A stretch of DNA of 64,000 nucleotides from an uncultured Bacteroidota bacterium (GTDB lineage Bacteria; Bacteroidota; Bacteroidia; Flavobacteriales; Flavobacteriaceae). The translations under genes and the position numbers were made by a program. A model generated the notes under the pieces. It made no database searches. It saw only the letters and a program-made list of their open reading frames with translations, and was not told where the DNA came from. Location of the stretch: contig CACHNE010000005.1 of the NCBI GenBank assembly GCA_902581145.1, positions 16,616 to 80,615 on the forward strand. Reading direction: 5' to 3'. Below are positions 6,308 through 16,071 of this stretch, one piece after another. How positions within the stretch are numbered: position 1 is the first letter of the stretch; the number at the start of each line of letters is the position of its first letter.

Positions 6308-6379
6308 GCGAAAGTAGCTCAGGGGTAGAGCATCACCTTGCCAAGGTGAGGGTCGCGGGTTCAAATCCCGTCTTTCGCT
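6308..6379 (+). tRNA. tRNA-Gly (GCC)
   Basis: Cloverleaf read by eye: acceptor GCGAAAG/CTTTCGC, anticodon loop in CCTTGCCAAGG, T-arm GCGGGTTCAAATCCCGT. Confidence 0.95.
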
Positions 6380-6393
6380 CACATACAATATAA

Positions 6394-6479
6394 GCTGAAG
6401 TGGTGGAATTGGTAGACACGTTGGACTTAAAATCCAATGGATAGTAATATCCGTGCGGGTTCAAGTCCCGCCTTCAGTA
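6394..6479 (+). tRNA. tRNA-Leu (UAA)
   Basis: Class II tRNA with long variable arm; acceptor GCTGAAG/CTTCAGT, anticodon stem-loop TTGGACTTAAAATCCAA, T-arm GCGGGTTCAAGTCCCGC. Confidence 0.95.
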
Positions 6480-6480
6480 C

Positions 6481-7782: not shown

Positions 7783-9486
7783 TTATCTAAATCTAGATTT
7801 TTTCTTTTTCTTTGATTTTTTTCTAGAGCTAGTTTTCTTTCTTGTTTTTCTTCTTTCTTTTCTTGGTCTAGGTCTTTCTTCATTCAAATCAATTGAAGTC
7901 CCCAAAACAATATCATTACCTCTAAAATCAATCTTTTTAATATTTGACGTTAATTGGTCTGCAAAATCTTTGTCAATTTCAAAAAAAGTTTGGTATCGGT
8001 TGAGTTCAATTTTTCCGATTTCAATATCGTTAGATTTAAGAGCTCTGTTAATAATTGAAATAATATCAATAGGTGTTGCTCTGTGTTTTCTTCCAATATT
8101 AATCGAAAACCCAGTCATTGATTTTTTGTTTCCTCTTTTTTTCTCTGATTTTTTACTTCTTTTAGATTGTAGTTTATTAGCCTCTTTGTAATAGTTTAAA
8201 AATCTATTAAATTCTACAGAAACAAATCTTTTGATTAACTCATCTCTGTCAAGCCATTCAAGTTTTTGATAGATGTCCTTTAAAAATGGTTTTATTTGTT
8301 TTTCATCAACTTCAACATTTTCAATTTTATCTATCATTTTATAAAGTTGATTGGAACAAATTTCCACTCCGGTTGGAACGTCCTTATTTACAAATTTAAT
8401 CCCTCCCTTTTTTTCAATTGATTTTATTTTTCTTCTTTCACTTTCATTTGAGATAGCAATTGAAATCCCGCTTTTTCCTGCTCTTGCAGTTCTACCACTT
8501 CGGTGGATATAAACTTCTGGATCATCAGGAAGTGAGTAATTAATTACGTGCGTTATATCATCTACATCTAAGCCACGCGCAGCCACATCAGTTGCAATTA
8601 AAATTTGTAGTGACTTATTTCTAAATCTTTGCATGACCTCATCTCTTTGATTTTGAGATAAATCTCCGTGTATAGCATCTGCATTATATCCCTCAGCGAT
8701 AAATTTATTTGCAATATCTTTTGTGTGCCTTTTTGTCCTACAGAATACTATACCATATATATTAGGATTAAAATCGGCAATTCTTTTTAATGCCTCATAT
8801 TTATTTCTAGAACTAACATTGTATATATGATGCTCAATATTTTTTGCGCCTGAATTAATTTTGGATACGCTAATTTCTTTTGCGTCACTCATGTATCTTT
8901 TAGAGATACTTTTAACTTCCTTGGAAATAGTTGCAGAAAAAAGCATAGTTTGTCGATCGGCTCTTGTTCTTTCTAATATAAAATCTAAATCATCTTTAAA
9001 GCCCATACTTAACATTTCATCAGCTTCATCCAATACGACCTTGTCAACCAATTCTAATTTTAAAACTTTTCTTTTGATTAAATCTTTGGTTCTTCCAGGT
9101 GTACCAACAACTATATGAACCCCTTTATTTAAAGATTTAATTTGTGTGTCAATATTGGTCCCACCATAAACTGCTAAAATTTTTATTCCAGATACATATT
9201 TTGAGTAAGTTTCTAAGTCTTTACATATTTGAATACAAAGTTCTCTGGTGGGGCATAATATTATAGTTTGTACGTATTTATTTTTTAATTCGGTTTTTTG
9301 AATTACTGGTAGTCCAAATGCTGCTGTTTTTCCTGTACCTGTTTGAGCCAGTGAAATTAAATCTCTGTTTTCAAGTAATAAAAACGGTATTGATTGTTCT
9401 TGAACTTCAGTCGGGTTGATAAAGCCCATTTCATTTATGCCTTTACATAAATCTTTTGCTACACCAATTTCTTTAAATTTTGACAT
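7783..9486 (-). CDS. DEAD-box RNA helicase with DbpA-like C-terminal domain and basic tail
   Basis: AQTGTGKTAAF, PTRELCIQI, DEADEM, SAT, HRSGRTARAGK; C-terminal RKERRKTRKKTSSRKKSKKKKKSRFR. Confidence 0.95.
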   Translation of the reverse strand: MSKFKEIGVAKDLCKGINEMGFINPTEVQEQSIPFLLLENRDLISLAQTGTGKTAAFGLPVIQKTELKNKYVQTIILCPTRELCIQICKDLETYSKYVSGIKILAVYGGTNIDTQIKSLNKGVHIVVGTPGRTKDLIKRKVLKLELVDKVVLDEADEMLSMGFKDDLDFILERTRADRQTMLFSATISKEVKSISKRYMSDAKEISVSKINSGAKNIEHHIYNVSSRNKYEALKRIADFNPNIYGIVFCRTKRHTKDIANKFIAEGYNADAIHGDLSQNQRDEVMQRFRNKSLQILIATDVAARGLDVDDITHVINYSLPDDPEVYIHRSGRTARAGKSGISIAISNESERRKIKSIEKKGGIKFVNKDVPTGVEICSNQLYKMIDKIENVEVDEKQIKPFLKDIYQKLEWLDRDELIKRFVSVEFNRFLNYYKEANKLQSKRSKKSEKKRGNKKSMTGFSINIGRKHRATPIDIISIINRALKSNDIEIGKIELNRYQTFFEIDKDFADQLTSNIKKIDFRGNDIVLGTSIDLNEERPRPRKERRKTRKKTSSRKKSKKKKKSRFR

Positions 9487-9536: not shown

Positions 9537-9590
9537 AAAAAAATAGATTAAAATTTTTCGATTTCATTTTTTATTTAAAAAAATAGATTA
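9537..9590. repeat. Pair of 14-nt direct repeats AAAAAAATAGATTA (9537-9550, 9577-9590)
   Basis: Identical 14-mers exactly 40 nt apart, just upstream of the trp leader. Confidence 0.6.
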
Positions 9591-9604
9591 TTATATTTAC
9601 ATCA

Positions 9605-9661
9605 ATGAAAAAATTACAATTAAATATGTGGTGGTGGAAACATGAAATATTCATTTCGTGA
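9605..9661 (+). CDS. trpL: trp operon leader peptide MKKLQLNMWWWKHEIFIS
   Basis: 18-codon ORF with three consecutive TGG codons, located between a candidate promoter and a Rho-independent terminator upstream of trpE. Confidence 0.93.
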   Translation: MKKLQLNMWWWKHEIFIS

Positions 9662-9698
9662 GGTAGTCGCTATATTTTAATTTGAAAAAAAGCTTATC
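9662..9698 (+). promoter_or_regulatory. Candidate antiterminator helix of the trp attenuator
   Basis: GGTAG(tc)GCT at 9662-9671 can pair with AGCTTATC at 9691-9698 (two G-U pairs, one 2-nt bulge), competing with the terminator's 5' arm. Hand-folded. Confidence 0.55.
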
Positions 9699-9719
9699 AT
9701 CACGATAAGCTTTTTTTTT
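9685..9719 (+). terminator. trp attenuator terminator
   Basis: AAAAAAAGCTTATC-ATCAC-GATAAGCTTTTTTTTT: 7-bp core extended by A/T pairs, ending in a 9-T run. Confidence 0.92.
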
Positions 9720-9746
9720 GTTCATGATTGGTTTTAGTTTGTTTTT

Positions 9747-9774
9747 TTAACGGGGGTGTAAAAGCCCCCATTAA
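9747..9774 (+). promoter_or_regulatory. Second hairpin in trpE 5' UTR
   Basis: TTAAcGGGGG-tgtaaaag-CCCCCaTTAA, ending 9 nt before the trpE ATG. Confidence 0.55.
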
Positions 9775-9783
9775 GAATTAAAA

Positions 9784-11181
9784 ATGAAAAAATTTAGATT
9801 AAAGACATATAAAAAGAAATTTTTAGTAGACACAATTACGCCTGTAAGCGTTTATTTAAGAATTAGAGATAAATATCCTAATAGCCTTCTCTTAGAGAGT
9901 AGCGATTACAACTCAAATAATAACAGTTTCTCATATATATGCTTTAATCAGATTGCATCTTTTGAAGTTTTTGAAGATATTCTATCAACGAAATTTCCTG
10001 ACAAGTCAAACAATGAAATTTCTTGCTCTAAAGAAAATTTAATCATTGAACTGCAAAATTTCATAAATCGATTTAAAGTTGAATCTTCTGAATTACCATT
10101 CATTAGCAACGGTCTTTTTGGATACACCTCTTATGATGCTGTAAAATATTTTGAGGATATAGAAATTAGTGTGAAAGATGATTCAGTAAAAATTCCTGAT
10201 ATGTATTATGGTATTTATAAAAATATTATTGCAATTAATCATTTCAAGAACGAGGCATATATTTTTTGTCATTCTTCAGATGAGCAAAATAATATTGACA
10301 AAATATATCAACTTATAAAAGTATCTAGTTCAAGTAATTATAAATTTAATTCTATTGATGATATAAATTCAAATCTAACTGACAAAGAATTTATAAAACA
10401 AGTTAATTACGCCAAGAATCATTGTAAAAGGGGAGACGTTTTTCAACTGGTTTTATCTAGGCGATTTTCTCAAAAATTTTCTGGAGATGACTTCAATGTA
10501 TACAGAGCACTAAGAAGTATAAACCCCTCTCCATACTTATTTTATTTTGATTATGGAGGTTACAAAATTTTTGGTAGTTCACCGGAAGCCCAACTTGTTA
10601 TCAAGGAAAAGTTAGCTGAAATTCACCCTATCGCAGGTACTTTTAAAAGAACTGGAAATGAAACAGAGGATAAAATACTTGCTGAAAAATTGCTAAATGA
10701 CCCAAAAGAAGGAAGTGAGCATGTTATGTTAGTCGATCTAGCTAGAAATGATTTAAGTAGGAATTGTCAGCTTGTTAAGGTTGAAAAATTTAAAGAAGTT
10801 CAATATTTCTCTCATGTTATTCATTTAGTAAGTAAAGTCACAGGTAAGCTGGATAACAATGATAAAAATTTAAAAATAATTGCAGACACTTTTCCTGCTG
10901 GAACTCTTTCTGGAGCACCAAAACACATGGCTATGACATTAATCGAAAAATATGAAAAAACTAATAGAGGATATTATGGAGGTGCAATAGGAATATTAGA
11001 TTTCAATGGGGATTTTAATCATGCTATAATGATAAGAACTTTCCTAAGTAAAAATAACTTTTTGTATTGGCAAGCAGGTGCTGGGATCGTAGATAAGTCT
11101 GATGAAAATAATGAATTACAAGAGGTTTATAATAAATTAAATGCATTAACAAAGTCAATTAAAATGGCTGATAAATTATAA
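9784..11181 (+). CDS. trpE: Anthranilate synthase component I
   Basis: Chorismate-binding motifs GDVFQLVLSRRFSQKF, FGSSPEAQL, HPIAGTFKRTGNETED, PAGTLSGAPK; first gene of the trp operon. Confidence 0.96.
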   Translation: MKKFRLKTYKKKFLVDTITPVSVYLRIRDKYPNSLLLESSDYNSNNNSFSYICFNQIASFEVFEDILSTKFPDKSNNEISCSKENLIIELQNFINRFKVESSELPFISNGLFGYTSYDAVKYFEDIEISVKDDSVKIPDMYYGIYKNIIAINHFKNEAYIFCHSSDEQNNIDKIYQLIKVSSSSNYKFNSIDDINSNLTDKEFIKQVNYAKNHCKRGDVFQLVLSRRFSQKFSGDDFNVYRALRSINPSPYLFYFDYGGYKIFGSSPEAQLVIKEKLAEIHPIAGTFKRTGNETEDKILAEKLLNDPKEGSEHVMLVDLARNDLSRNCQLVKVEKFKEVQYFSHVIHLVSKVTGKLDNNDKNLKIIADTFPAGTLSGAPKHMAMTLIEKYEKTNRGYYGGAIGILDFNGDFNHAIMIRTFLSKNNFLYWQAGAGIVDKSDENNELQEVYNKLNALTKSIKMADKL

Positions 11182-11182
11182 A

Positions 11183-11746
11183 ATGAATAAGGTTTTAGTA
11201 ATAGATAATTACGATAGTTTTACTTATAATTTGGTACACCTAATTAAGGAAATGAATTATGATGTAACCGTTGTTAGAAATGATAAATTTGATTTAGATG
11301 ATATCTCAAAATTTGATAAAATTTTATTATCGCCTGGCCCTGGGATTCCCGACGAGTCAGGTCTATTGAAAAAAGTAATTGAAAAGTATGGTCCAACAAA
11401 AAGTATTCTTGGAATATGTCTTGGCCAACAAGCTATCGCTGAAGTTTATGGTGGATCTTTGAAAAACTTAGATGAAGTATTTCACGGAATTTCATCTAAC
11501 ATAAACCTTTGTGTAAAAGACGAATCAATTTTTCATGGAATCAAAAATAATTTTCAGGCAGCTAGGTATCATTCATGGGTCGTAGACAATATTTCTGATG
11601 AACTTGAAATAACATCTGTCGATGACAATAATCAAATTATGTCGATAAGACACACCCAATATGACGTTAAGGGAGTTCAGTTTCATCCTGAATCTATTTT
11701 AACCCCCTATGGAAAAAAAATTATAGAAAACTGGATTAATAACTAA
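11183..11746 (+). CDS. trpG: Anthranilate synthase component II
   Basis: DNYDSFTYNLVH, LSPGPGIP, GICLGQQAI, GVQFHPESI. Confidence 0.97.
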   Translation: MNKVLVIDNYDSFTYNLVHLIKEMNYDVTVVRNDKFDLDDISKFDKILLSPGPGIPDESGLLKKVIEKYGPTKSILGICLGQQAIAEVYGGSLKNLDEVFHGISSNINLCVKDESIFHGIKNNFQAARYHSWVVDNISDELEITSVDDNNQIMSIRHTQYDVKGVQFHPESILTPYGKKIIENWINN

Positions 11747-11747
11747 A

Positions 11748-12743
11748 ATGAAAGAAATTTTAACAAGATTAATAAATCATGAAAATTTAGATGAAAAAGA
11801 ATCTAAAGAAATTCTTATTGATATTTCAATGGGAAAATATAATCACGAACAGGTTGCTTCTTTTTTGACAGTTTTTATGTTAAGAAGAACATCAACAAAT
11901 GAGCTTATTGGATTTAGAGATGCATTGCTAGAATTATGTGTAAAATTGGATTTTAGTGATTTTGAAACCATTGATTTGTGTGGTACCGGGGGTGATAATA
12001 AAAACACATTTAATATCTCTACCTTGTCATCTTTTGTTACAGCTGGTGCAGGAATTCATGTTGCAAAACATGGTAATTATTCTGTTTCTTCAGCTTGTGG
12101 CTCATCCAATGTGTTAGAGTATTTTGGTATAAAATTTACAAATGAAGAAGACTATTTAAAAACCTGTTTAAATAAGGCTCATATTTGTATCTTACATGCC
12201 CCATTATTTCATCCTGCTATGAAAAATGTTGCACCTGTGAGGAAGGCACTTGGAATGAAAACATTTTTTAATATTTTAGGTCCATTGGTAAATCCTTGTC
12301 GACCAAATAATCAACTTGTTGGTGTATATGGATTGGATATTCTAAGACTTTATAAATCTGTTTTTGAAACAACTAACGGATTTAAGTATTCAATTGTCCA
12401 TTCTTTAGACGGCTACGATGAAATTTCATTAACAGGATATTCAAAAATTGTTTCAAATAATAATGAGTTATTAATAAAACCTAAAGATTTTGATTCAAAG
12501 ATAATTTCCCCTGAAAAAATCTTTGGTGGTAATACTATTGAGCAAGCTGCTTCAATTTTTCTTGATGTTTTAAATTTGAGATCTACGAAAGAGCAAACTG
12601 ATGTGGTTCTTGCAAACTCTGCTTTGGCAATTTCTACTGCAAAGGAAATTGGAATTTCTGAAGCTTTTGACTTAGCAAAAGACTCATTATTTAGTAAAAA
12701 AGCCCTTAAATCATTTAACACATTAATTGAACTAAGTAAATGA
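11748..12743 (+). CDS. trpD: Anthranilate phosphoribosyltransferase
   Basis: DLCGTGGDNKNTFNIST, KHGNYSVSSACGS, FNILGPLVNP. Confidence 0.97.
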   Translation: MKEILTRLINHENLDEKESKEILIDISMGKYNHEQVASFLTVFMLRRTSTNELIGFRDALLELCVKLDFSDFETIDLCGTGGDNKNTFNISTLSSFVTAGAGIHVAKHGNYSVSSACGSSNVLEYFGIKFTNEEDYLKTCLNKAHICILHAPLFHPAMKNVAPVRKALGMKTFFNILGPLVNPCRPNNQLVGVYGLDILRLYKSVFETTNGFKYSIVHSLDGYDEISLTGYSKIVSNNNELLIKPKDFDSKIISPEKIFGGNTIEQAASIFLDVLNLRSTKEQTDVVLANSALAISTAKEIGISEAFDLAKDSLFSKKALKSFNTLIELSK

Positions 12744-13525
12744 ATGTTTTGAATAAAATAATTCGTCACAAAAAAAATGAGATAAGCCATCTCAAACTAA
12801 ATTACTCTACAAGTCAATTAGAGTCTTCTTTATTTTTTGATAGAGAAACTATTTCTTTAAAAAGCAAATTAAAATCAAGCAGCTCTGGAATAATTGCAGA
12901 GCATAAAAGAAAATCTCCATCAAAAGATATCATCAACAATAAACTAAAAATACAAGAGGTTATTAGCGGATATCAAGATGCAGGAGTTTGTGGAATTTCA
13001 GTTCTAACAGACTTTGATTTCTTTGGTGGGACAAATGATGATTTAAAAATTGCTAGAGAAATTTTTGAAGGACCAATTTTAAGAAAAGATTTTATTTTAG
13101 ATGAATTTCAAATTGTTGAATCAAAATCATTAGGCGCTGATGTAATTTTATTAATCGCTTCAGTTTTAAGTAAACAGGAAATTTTCAAGTTGTCCAAGCT
13201 AGCTAATGAGTTGCATCTAGAAGTCTTGGCAGAAATTCATAATGAGAATGAACTAGAAAAGGTAATGAATCCATATATAGATTTAATCGGAGTGAATAAT
13301 AGGGATTTAAAAATATTTAAAACAGATATAAACATCTCAAAAAAAATCTCAAAAAAAATTCCTAATGATTTTTTAAAGATTTCAGAGAGTGGAATTGACA
13401 ATTATAATACCGTCAAAGATTTAAGGAAATATGGATTCAATGGTTTTTTAATTGGAGAAAATTTTATGAAAACAATAAATCCAGGCTTAGCTGCAAGGGA
13501 GTTTATAAAAAAAATTGAAATATGA
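12740..13525 (+). CDS. trpC: Indole-3-glycerol phosphate synthase
   Basis: IIAEHKRKSPSK, ILRKDFILDEFQI, IGVNNRDLKIF, ISESGI. Confidence 0.96.
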   Translation: MNVLNKIIRHKKNEISHLKLNYSTSQLESSLFFDRETISLKSKLKSSSSGIIAEHKRKSPSKDIINNKLKIQEVISGYQDAGVCGISVLTDFDFFGGTNDDLKIAREIFEGPILRKDFILDEFQIVESKSLGADVILLIASVLSKQEIFKLSKLANELHLEVLAEIHNENELEKVMNPYIDLIGVNNRDLKIFKTDINISKKISKKIPNDFLKISESGIDNYNTVKDLRKYGFNGFLIGENFMKTINPGLAAREFIKKIEI

Positions 13526-14130
13526 AATTAAAAATATGTGGCATGAAATATAATGATAATATCAGATTAATTTCAAAATTAAATCCTGATTATATGGGTT
13601 TTATATTTTACAATAAATCAAAAAGATTTTTCGATAATGAACCAATACCAAGGGTTAATAATAACATTAAAAAAGTAGGTGTTTTTGTTGATCCTGAAAT
13701 TGAATACCTAAACTTTATTATTAAAAAAAATAATTTAGATATGGTGCAATTACATGGAAATGAGAAACCTGATTTTATATCACAAATTCGAGGTGTTAAA
13801 ATAATAAAAGCCTTTTCAATTGATAAAAATTTCAATTTTAATTCAATCGAAAATTATATGAAATGCGATTATTTTCTTTTTGATACAAAAGGAAAATTTC
13901 CGGGTGGTAATGGAATATCTTTTGACTGGAAAATTTTAACAAACTATAAATTTAATAAACCATATTTCTTAAGTGGTGGTATAGGTTTACACAATATAAA
14001 GGAACTAAAAGACTTTTTTAGTTCAACAATTTCAAAATACTGTTTTGCATTAGATATTAATAGTCACTTTGAAATTGAGTATGCAAAAAAAGATTATGAA
14101 TTAATTAAAAATTTTAAAAATGAGCTATAA
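13522..14130 (+). CDS. trpF: Phosphoribosylanthranilate isomerase
   Basis: [38 protein letters not shown]. Confidence 0.95.
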
Positions 14131-15301
14131 TGTAAATTTTAAAGGTTACTATGGAGATTTTGGAGGTGCATATATTCCAGAAATGCTCTTACATAATATT
14201 GACGAGCTTAAAAAAAATTATATTAAAATAATGAGTGATGATAGTTTTCAGCAAGAATTTAATCAATTGCTTAAAGACTATGTTGGCAGGCCATCTCCGC
14301 TATATTTTTCAAAAAATTTATCTGAAAAATATTCAGCTAAAATATATTTAAAAAGAGAAGATCTAAATCACACAGGAGCTCATAAAATTAACAATACAAT
14401 AGGACAAATAATCCTTGCAAAAAGATTAAATAAATCGCGGATTATTGCTGAAACTGGAGCAGGACAACATGGAGTGGCTACAGCAACAGTTTGTGCTTTA
14501 ATGGGTTTAAAATGTATCGTATATATGGGTGCTACTGATGTAAAAAGACAGGCCCCAAATGTTGCAAGAATGAAAATGTTAGGTGCTGATGTCATACCTG
14601 TAAAATCCGGAAGTTCAACCTTAAAAGATGCGACAAATGAAGCAATGAGAGACTGGATTAACAATCCAATTGATACTCATTATATTGTTGGGAGCGTTGT
14701 TGGACCGCATCCTTTTCCTGACATGGTTGCTAGATTCCAGTCTGTTATTTCAAAAGAGATAAAAGAGCAACTTCTTTTAGTTGAAGGAAGAAATTATCCA
14801 GATTATTTAATCGCCTGTGTAGGTGGAGGAAGTAATGCCGCAGGAACGTTTTATGATTATTTGGATGATGAAAGAGTGAAAATTATTTGTGTTGAGGCAT
14901 CTGGAAAAGGAGTGAATTCTGGAAAATCAGCTGCGACTACAAAATTGGGTAAAACGGGAATTATACATGGTAGCAAGACATTACTTATGCAAACAGATGA
15001 TGGTCAAATTACCGAACCCTATTCAATTTCAGCTGGATTAGATTATCCAGGAATAGGGCCTATGCATGCTAATTTATTTACCACGGGAAGAGGAGAGTTT
15101 ATTTCAATTGATGATGATGAGGCAATGTCAGCTGGTTTGCAATTGTCACAACTTGAAGGAATTATTCCTGCTATTGAAACCTCGCATGCTTTAGCAGTAT
15201 TTGATCATAAAAAATTTAATTCGACTGATATAATTGTTCTAAACCTTTCAGGTAGAGGTGATAAAGATCTAGAGAATTATATAAATTATTTTAATATATA
15301 A
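14120..15301 (+). CDS. trpB: Tryptophan synthase beta chain
   Basis: [47 protein letters not shown]. Confidence 0.98.
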
Positions 15302-16071
15302 TGAACAGAATTAGCAAAACCCTTAAAGAAAAAGACAATATTTTGTCAATATATTTTACTGCAGGATTTCCTGAATTAAATAGTACAATTGAAATAATTG
15401 AAAATTTAGTTTCTGCTGGTGTGGATATGATTGAAATTGGTTTACCATTTAGCGATCCATTAGCTGATGGTGAGACTATTCAGATGAGTTCAAAAATTGC
15501 ATTAGATAATGGAATATCAACAAATATTTTATTTGAACAACTCAAAGAAATTAGAAATAATGTCAGTATTCCTTTAATAATTATGGGGTATTTCAATCCT
15601 ATTTTCCAATTTGGAGTTGATGAATTTTGTAAAAAGTGCAATGAAATTGGAATTGATGGCTTGATAATTCCCGACTTACCAATTGATATTTACCTCTCAA
15701 ATTATAAAAGAATTTTTGAGAAAAATCAACTTCAAAATATATTTTTAATAACTCCACAAACCAGTAAAGAAAGAATAGAATACATAGATAATAACAGTAA
15801 TGGATTTCTATATGTAGTCAGTTCATCAAGTATAACTGGCTCCACAAATAAATTTGATAAAAACAGTATAAATTACTTCAGAAAATTAGAAAAAATGAAT
15901 TTATCTAATCCTAAAATTATTGGTTTTGGAATTTCAAATAATGAAAATTTCTCAATTGCTAGTAAATACTCAAAGGGTTGTATTGTGGGCAGTGCGTTTA
16001 TTAAATATATTCAAACTAATGGAATTAAATCTGTAGGAAAATTTATCAATGAGATTAAAATTGGAAATTAA
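15301..16071 (+). CDS. trpA: Tryptophan synthase alpha chain
   Basis: FTAGFPELNSTI, MIEIGLPFSDPLADGETIQ, DGLIIPDLP, GFGIS. Confidence 0.97.
   Translation: MNRISKTLKEKDNILSIYFTAGFPELNSTIEIIENLVSAGVDMIEIGLPFSDPLADGETIQMSSKIALDNGISTNILFEQLKEIRNNVSIPLIIMGYFNPIFQFGVDEFCKKCNEIGIDGLIIPDLPIDIYLSNYKRIFEKNQLQNIFLITPQTSKERIEYIDNNSNGFLYVVSSSSITGSTNKFDKNSINYFRKLEKMNLSNPKIIGFGISNNENFSIASKYSKGCIVGSAFIKYIQTNGIKSVGKFINEIKIGN

Follow-up and report, generated by a model that had tools for sequence, protein, structure and literature searches.

The trp leader of Escherichia coli (trpL) combines Trp codons, the alternative pairings 1:2, 2:3, and 3:4, and masking at the stop codon. In Sinorhizobium meliloti, trpL (rnTrpL/peTrpL) serves attenuation of trpE, its RNA has its 5′ end at the leader ATG, and a function in trans has been shown (PMC7298713). 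Among Bacteroidota leaders, RF01692 (Bacteroid-trp) was described by Weinberg et al. 2010 (PMC2864571). Two papers on Flavobacterium psychrophilum note Bacteroid-trp upstream of the trp operon (PMC6414381) and signs of attenuation by leader peptides in front of operons for amino acids (PMC9723704).

Here we analysed a 64-kb window (the whole stretch of DNA under study), in which gene-model matches to trpE, trpG, trpD, trpC, trpF, trpB, and trpA form a complete trpEGDCFBA operon. Judging from computed structures and spacing, the element in front of it is very probably a ribosome-mediated transcription attenuator of the trp operon, and we infer that its termination depends on Trp. The features are as follows.

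9592–9599, + strand: −7 promoter element TATATTTA, matching TAnnTTTG at five of six fixed letters, with a gap of 5 nt to the leader ATG
9605–9661, + strand: leader peptide ORF, MKKLQLNMWWWKHEIFIS and stop codon, read from the sequence
9629–9637, + strand: three regulatory Trp codons
9641–9660, + strand: 1:2 hairpin, 9641–9648 with 9653–9660, predicted to hide the 5′ strand of H1 when the ribosome is absent
9656–9661, + strand: 5′ strand of antiterminator helix H1, TCGTGA, which includes the leader stop codon (from covariation and spacing)
9662–9671, + strand: GGTAG(tc)GCT, the antiterminator strand of the initial annotation, a local extension of H1 that pairs with 9691–9698 in folds of the window
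9684–9718, + strand: intrinsic terminator, 15-bp stem of 9684–9698 with 9704–9718 and loop 9699–9703, running into a T run (from folding)
9700–9705, + strand: 3′ strand of H1, TCACGA, spanning terminator loop bases and the two bases that open the 3′ arm, pairing with 9656–9661
9752–9769, + strand: second hairpin, 9752–9757 with 9764–9769, just 5′ of trpE (compared within the genus only)
9784–16071, + strand: controlled operon, trpE, trpG, trpD, trpC, trpF, trpB, trpA

The 18-codon ORF carrying TGG TGG TGG, which had been picked out in the initial annotation, was the sole WWW ORF of 8–40 aa in the window, against a chance expectation of 0.03 short WWW ORFs per 64 kb (Markov simulation). Of the three copies of TGGTGGTGG in the window (0.07 expected), only the one at 9605–9661 lies in a short ORF. 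As in a classical attenuator, the codons of the leader ORF match the operon product (Trp), and an intrinsic terminator precedes the first gene, trpE starting at 9784, downstream of both ORF and terminator. Apart from tRNA-Gly(gcc) and tRNA-Leu(taa), at 6308–6480, no tRNA genes were found in the window.

The window leader shares with E. coli trpL the Trp codons, the 1:2/2:3/3:4 alternatives, and stop-codon masking. It differs in having three adjacent Trp codons near the middle of the ORF, in an antiterminator core whose partner is the terminator loop together with the beginning of the 3′ arm, and in being predicted to be leaderless, without a Shine-Dalgarno sequence. Attenuation of trpE, a 5′ end at the ATG (predicted in the window), and a released RNA with an ORF are common to it and S. 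meliloti trpL, whereas the phylum and sequence differ and a function in trans is a possibility here. RF01692 and the window leader have in common the phylum, the position before trp genes, an ORF with a Trp run, and an end-to-end alignment; however, the printed structure of RF01692 gives the ribosome-free fold only and ends in the 5′ arm of the terminator, while the window leader adds H1. The F. psychrophilum leader likewise has Bacteroid-trp upstream of the trp operon, but extracts of both papers (PMC6414381, PMC9723704) give no antiterminator helix.

RF01692 matched the window over the whole model length (9585–9698) with 40.6 bits. Because this lies below the gathering score of 49, which is a detection cut-off and no biological feature, an Rfam scan at gathering thresholds omits the window copy. 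The leader stands before trp genes in Bacteroidota and has a short ORF with at least two Trp codons, both features of the family, and the leader before trpE in a genus-mate (G019) scored 51.2 bits, above the cut-off. We also built a covariance model (R1) from 48 leaders, all outside the window's genus, which matched the window with 75.2 bits (E 3.6e-14). On the strength of position and model R1, on which the homology rests, the window leader is an RF01692 homologue below the curated cut-off. The initial annotation had called the attenuator unannotated; this holds for the window copy, missed at the gathering threshold, and not for the class, which is already in Rfam. H1 is absent from the RF01692 structure as printed in Rfam, and the supplements of Weinberg et al. 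may draw it. The attenuator class is already known; the conserved H1 undrawn in Rfam and the operon-less relatives that keep the switch are new.

Some weaker matches were set aside. A weak match of RF04180 (9686–9808) and a minus-strand match of model R1 (9686–9797) probably mirror the palindromic terminator. R1 matches of 29–43 bits in other genomes were regarded as noise: none of the 16 inspected had a plausible leader, and many were coding ends followed by ordinary terminators.

The comparative set, selected by TrpE without use of the RNA, covered trpE upstream regions of about 150 genera within the family and of some beyond it. A WW or WWW leader was present upstream of trpE in 166/169 sequences (about one per genus), and a 167th was visible in a cut contig; no leader was found in the stretch taken for the other two. 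Three Trp codons occurred in 146 of the 166 leaders and two in 20, and the run started at codon 9 in 138. In other Bacteroidia families, WW leaders were found in 11/13. Several of these leaders had an antiterminator at a similar place with unrelated sequence (0/200 shuffles each in L214, L216, L217, L221, and L226); antiterminators outside the family include GGGAAA/TTTCCC and GATGAAC/GTTCATC, which follow the same logic in unrelated sequence. Terminator calls were absent for ten sequences, and two rows are unreliable, L022, in which the automatic terminator search took the second hairpin, and the class-level L218, which was mis-detected. The conservation check on trpE upstream regions proposed with the initial annotation thus gave a retained Trp-codon run and a covarying antiterminator and terminator.

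Two leader-like matches in tandem were seen upstream of trpE in G037:C26 (L041) and G052:C169 (L039). In G065, the same RNA architecture (L276, minus strand, ca. 1483–1650, 66.9 bits) lies directly before aspartokinase, but its codons are for Lys (NKKDKK) and not for Trp, and its start codon is uncertain; it is a possible codon-swapped lysine attenuator.

The 141-nt leader folded with −34.6 kcal/mol (z −4.05), and 0/200 shuffles were as good. The strong terminator had been noted at 9685–9719, in agreement with the 15-bp stem at 9684–9718; its core stem was 99.5% paired across the set, with double changes in 8/8 pairs tested. The second hairpin, 9752–9769, keeps its structure in the genus despite three unrelated sequences, and relatives lacking the operon have a hairpin at a similar place, usually followed by a T run.

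In 165 distinct sequences, H1 was 94.4% paired with double changes in 6/6 pairs, and 0/500 shuffles reached any of these measures. Its duplex energy beat 200/200 shuffles in the window and was among the best 5% in 133/156 sequences, and own H1 pairs outscored swapped pairs in 130/156. Like a classical attenuator, the leader therefore has an antiterminator that excludes the terminator and is conserved by covariation; this signal is weaker in a subset of 48 sequences, where double changes appeared in only 2/6 pairs because H1, of only 6 bp, is mostly invariant. No RNAalifold consensus was found for the nascent state. The pairing originally proposed, of GGTAG(tc)GCT (9662–9671) with AGCTTATC (9691–9698), is possible and appeared in stalled-ribosome folds, but as a conserved antiterminator it was rejected, since family-wide the pairing after H1 was no better than shuffles. 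Accordingly, the proposal of ribosome-mediated attenuation stands on conserved leaders, covarying H1 and terminator, and spacing, with its core moved from 9662–9671 to 9656–9661/9700–9705.

The 5′ strand of H1 was paired upstream, in the 1:2 hairpin, in 152/160 leaders (mean −5.1 vs −2.2 kcal/mol for shuffled sequences). In the fixed alignment this hairpin was only 66% paired, probably owing to a shifting register. In 136/161 leaders, H1 lay 21–22 nt from the last Trp codon, and the position of the stop codon relative to H1 ranged from −13 to +9. With the downstream edge of the ribosome footprint assumed at 13 nt, a ribosome stalled at Trp left H1 free in 160 of 161 leaders, and a ribosome at the stop codon overlapped H1 in 161/161; the spacing is that of a classical attenuator, letting stalling free, and the stop position mask, the antiterminator strand. 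In masked folds of the nascent window RNA up to 9706, P(H1) was 0.97–0.98 with a stalled ribosome, 0 with a ribosome at the stop codon, and 0.24 without a ribosome. Since the completed terminator always wins in equilibrium folds, antitermination is kinetic in the model.

In 146/166 sequences, the leader start has an exact TAnnTTTG no more than 45 nt away, compared with 3 in control stretches. In Flavobacterium johnsoniae, start sites lie 4–5 nt after this box (PMC6847099). The gap in the window is 5 nt, and hence the RNA is predicted to start at 9604–9605, at the ATG or 1 nt before, and the leader mRNA to be leaderless. The gap is 4–5 nt in 56/164 leaders; by this measure about one-third of leaders appear leaderless, whereas for F. 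psychrophilum the reported share of leaderless mRNAs is 5.5% (PMC9723704).

We propose the following mechanism. Transcription would start at the leader ATG or 1 nt before. With ample charged tRNA-Trp, the ribosome would arrive at the UGA (9659) and cover TCGTGA and the following bases; no antiterminator would then form, the terminator would, and transcription would end near 9718. When charged tRNA-Trp is scarce, the ribosome would stall at 9629–9637 and open the 1:2 hairpin, and the free TCGTGA could pair with the emerging TCACGA before the 3′ arm of the terminator is complete, allowing RNA polymerase into trpE. In the absence of a ribosome, the 1:2 hairpin would hide TCGTGA, with termination as the default.

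Both trpE and trpB were not found in about half of the genus, and model R1 detected strong leaders in eight genomes without trpE/trpB. In seven of these (G001, G002, G003, G004, G007, G012, and G013; L232–L238), the leader occupies the syntenic site beside the same helicase gene and is not followed by a trp gene; L232 and L234, the two that were read completely, are followed by genes of opposite orientation. In the eighth (G020, L239), it stands directly before a TrpB-like gene (PRK12391 family, trpB2-type), as it does in G199 (L277) of another genus, in which trpE was not found; control of indole salvage is possible in these two. G017 (L240) has a leader-operon-leader tandem with both leaders in direct orientation; recombination between the two would remove the operon and leave a single leader behind. 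Compared with G017 or G006 (the latter being a bin contaminated to 6%, in which trp is present twice), the window had a fourfold-site identity of 0.87–0.88 in trpE (9784–11181), against 0.45–0.46 in the adjacent helicase (7783–9486); the operon has therefore probably moved horizontally between lineages of the genus. In G020, the sequence switches from native to foreign near the leader start. These observations suggest that neither retention nor recombination of the leader depends on the operon.

Once released, the leader RNA or peptide might have a function in trans, with attenuation as one of two roles, a reading that we consider possible but doubtful. It draws on the seven operon-less relatives, all of which keep the promoter, 18 codons, WWW, TGA, 6/6 H1 pairs, and the terminator; in three of them (G002, G003, and G013) H1 is re-paired, with both strands TCATGA. 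Among six operon-less leaders, identity was 0.82 in the ORF and 0.81 up to the terminator end, compared with 0.54 in the spacer after the terminator and 0.48 at fourfold sites of the helicase; the contrast rests on spacer and fourfold sites, because the upstream intergenic stretch was also 0.81 identical. Sinorhizobium rnTrpL/peTrpL, also leaderless, is the closest precedent (PMC7298713). However, the operon-less genomes are only 65–86% complete, and operon loss may be recent, or the operon may be gained and lost by recombination, so that the leader would be kept from earlier selection.

The high stability of the stem would also suit a constitutive terminator or small RNA in which the WWW ORF is incidental. 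This is very improbable, given that the position of WWW, the spacing, and H1 are conserved over about 150 genera and that short WWW ORFs are very rare by chance. T-box and TRAP occur in other phyla, and another tryptophan sensor of this kind could in principle act on the leader; this is scarcely credible, since no T-box model matched in the window at E up to 1, the leader has one GAG and one TAG and no TRAP-type array, and a conserved codon run and covarying H1 were found instead.

For the ribosome-mediated attenuator preferred here, the analysis gives an RNA motif that was catalogued but little described the form of a three-state switch whose base pairs are named and which can be tested; it holds for about 150 genera, in a phylum that makes no use of Shine-Dalgarno sequences. 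Tentatively, and with more doubt than confidence, the leader in this marine genus may be a unit of its own, selected without the operon through a trans-acting sRNA or WWW peptide, and its homology may also provide the site of recombination where relatives exchange the trp operon, a trpB2-type gene, or nothing. In view of the operon-less copies, one may ask whether an attenuator can persist after its operon is lost, as an RNA or peptide gene standing on its own.
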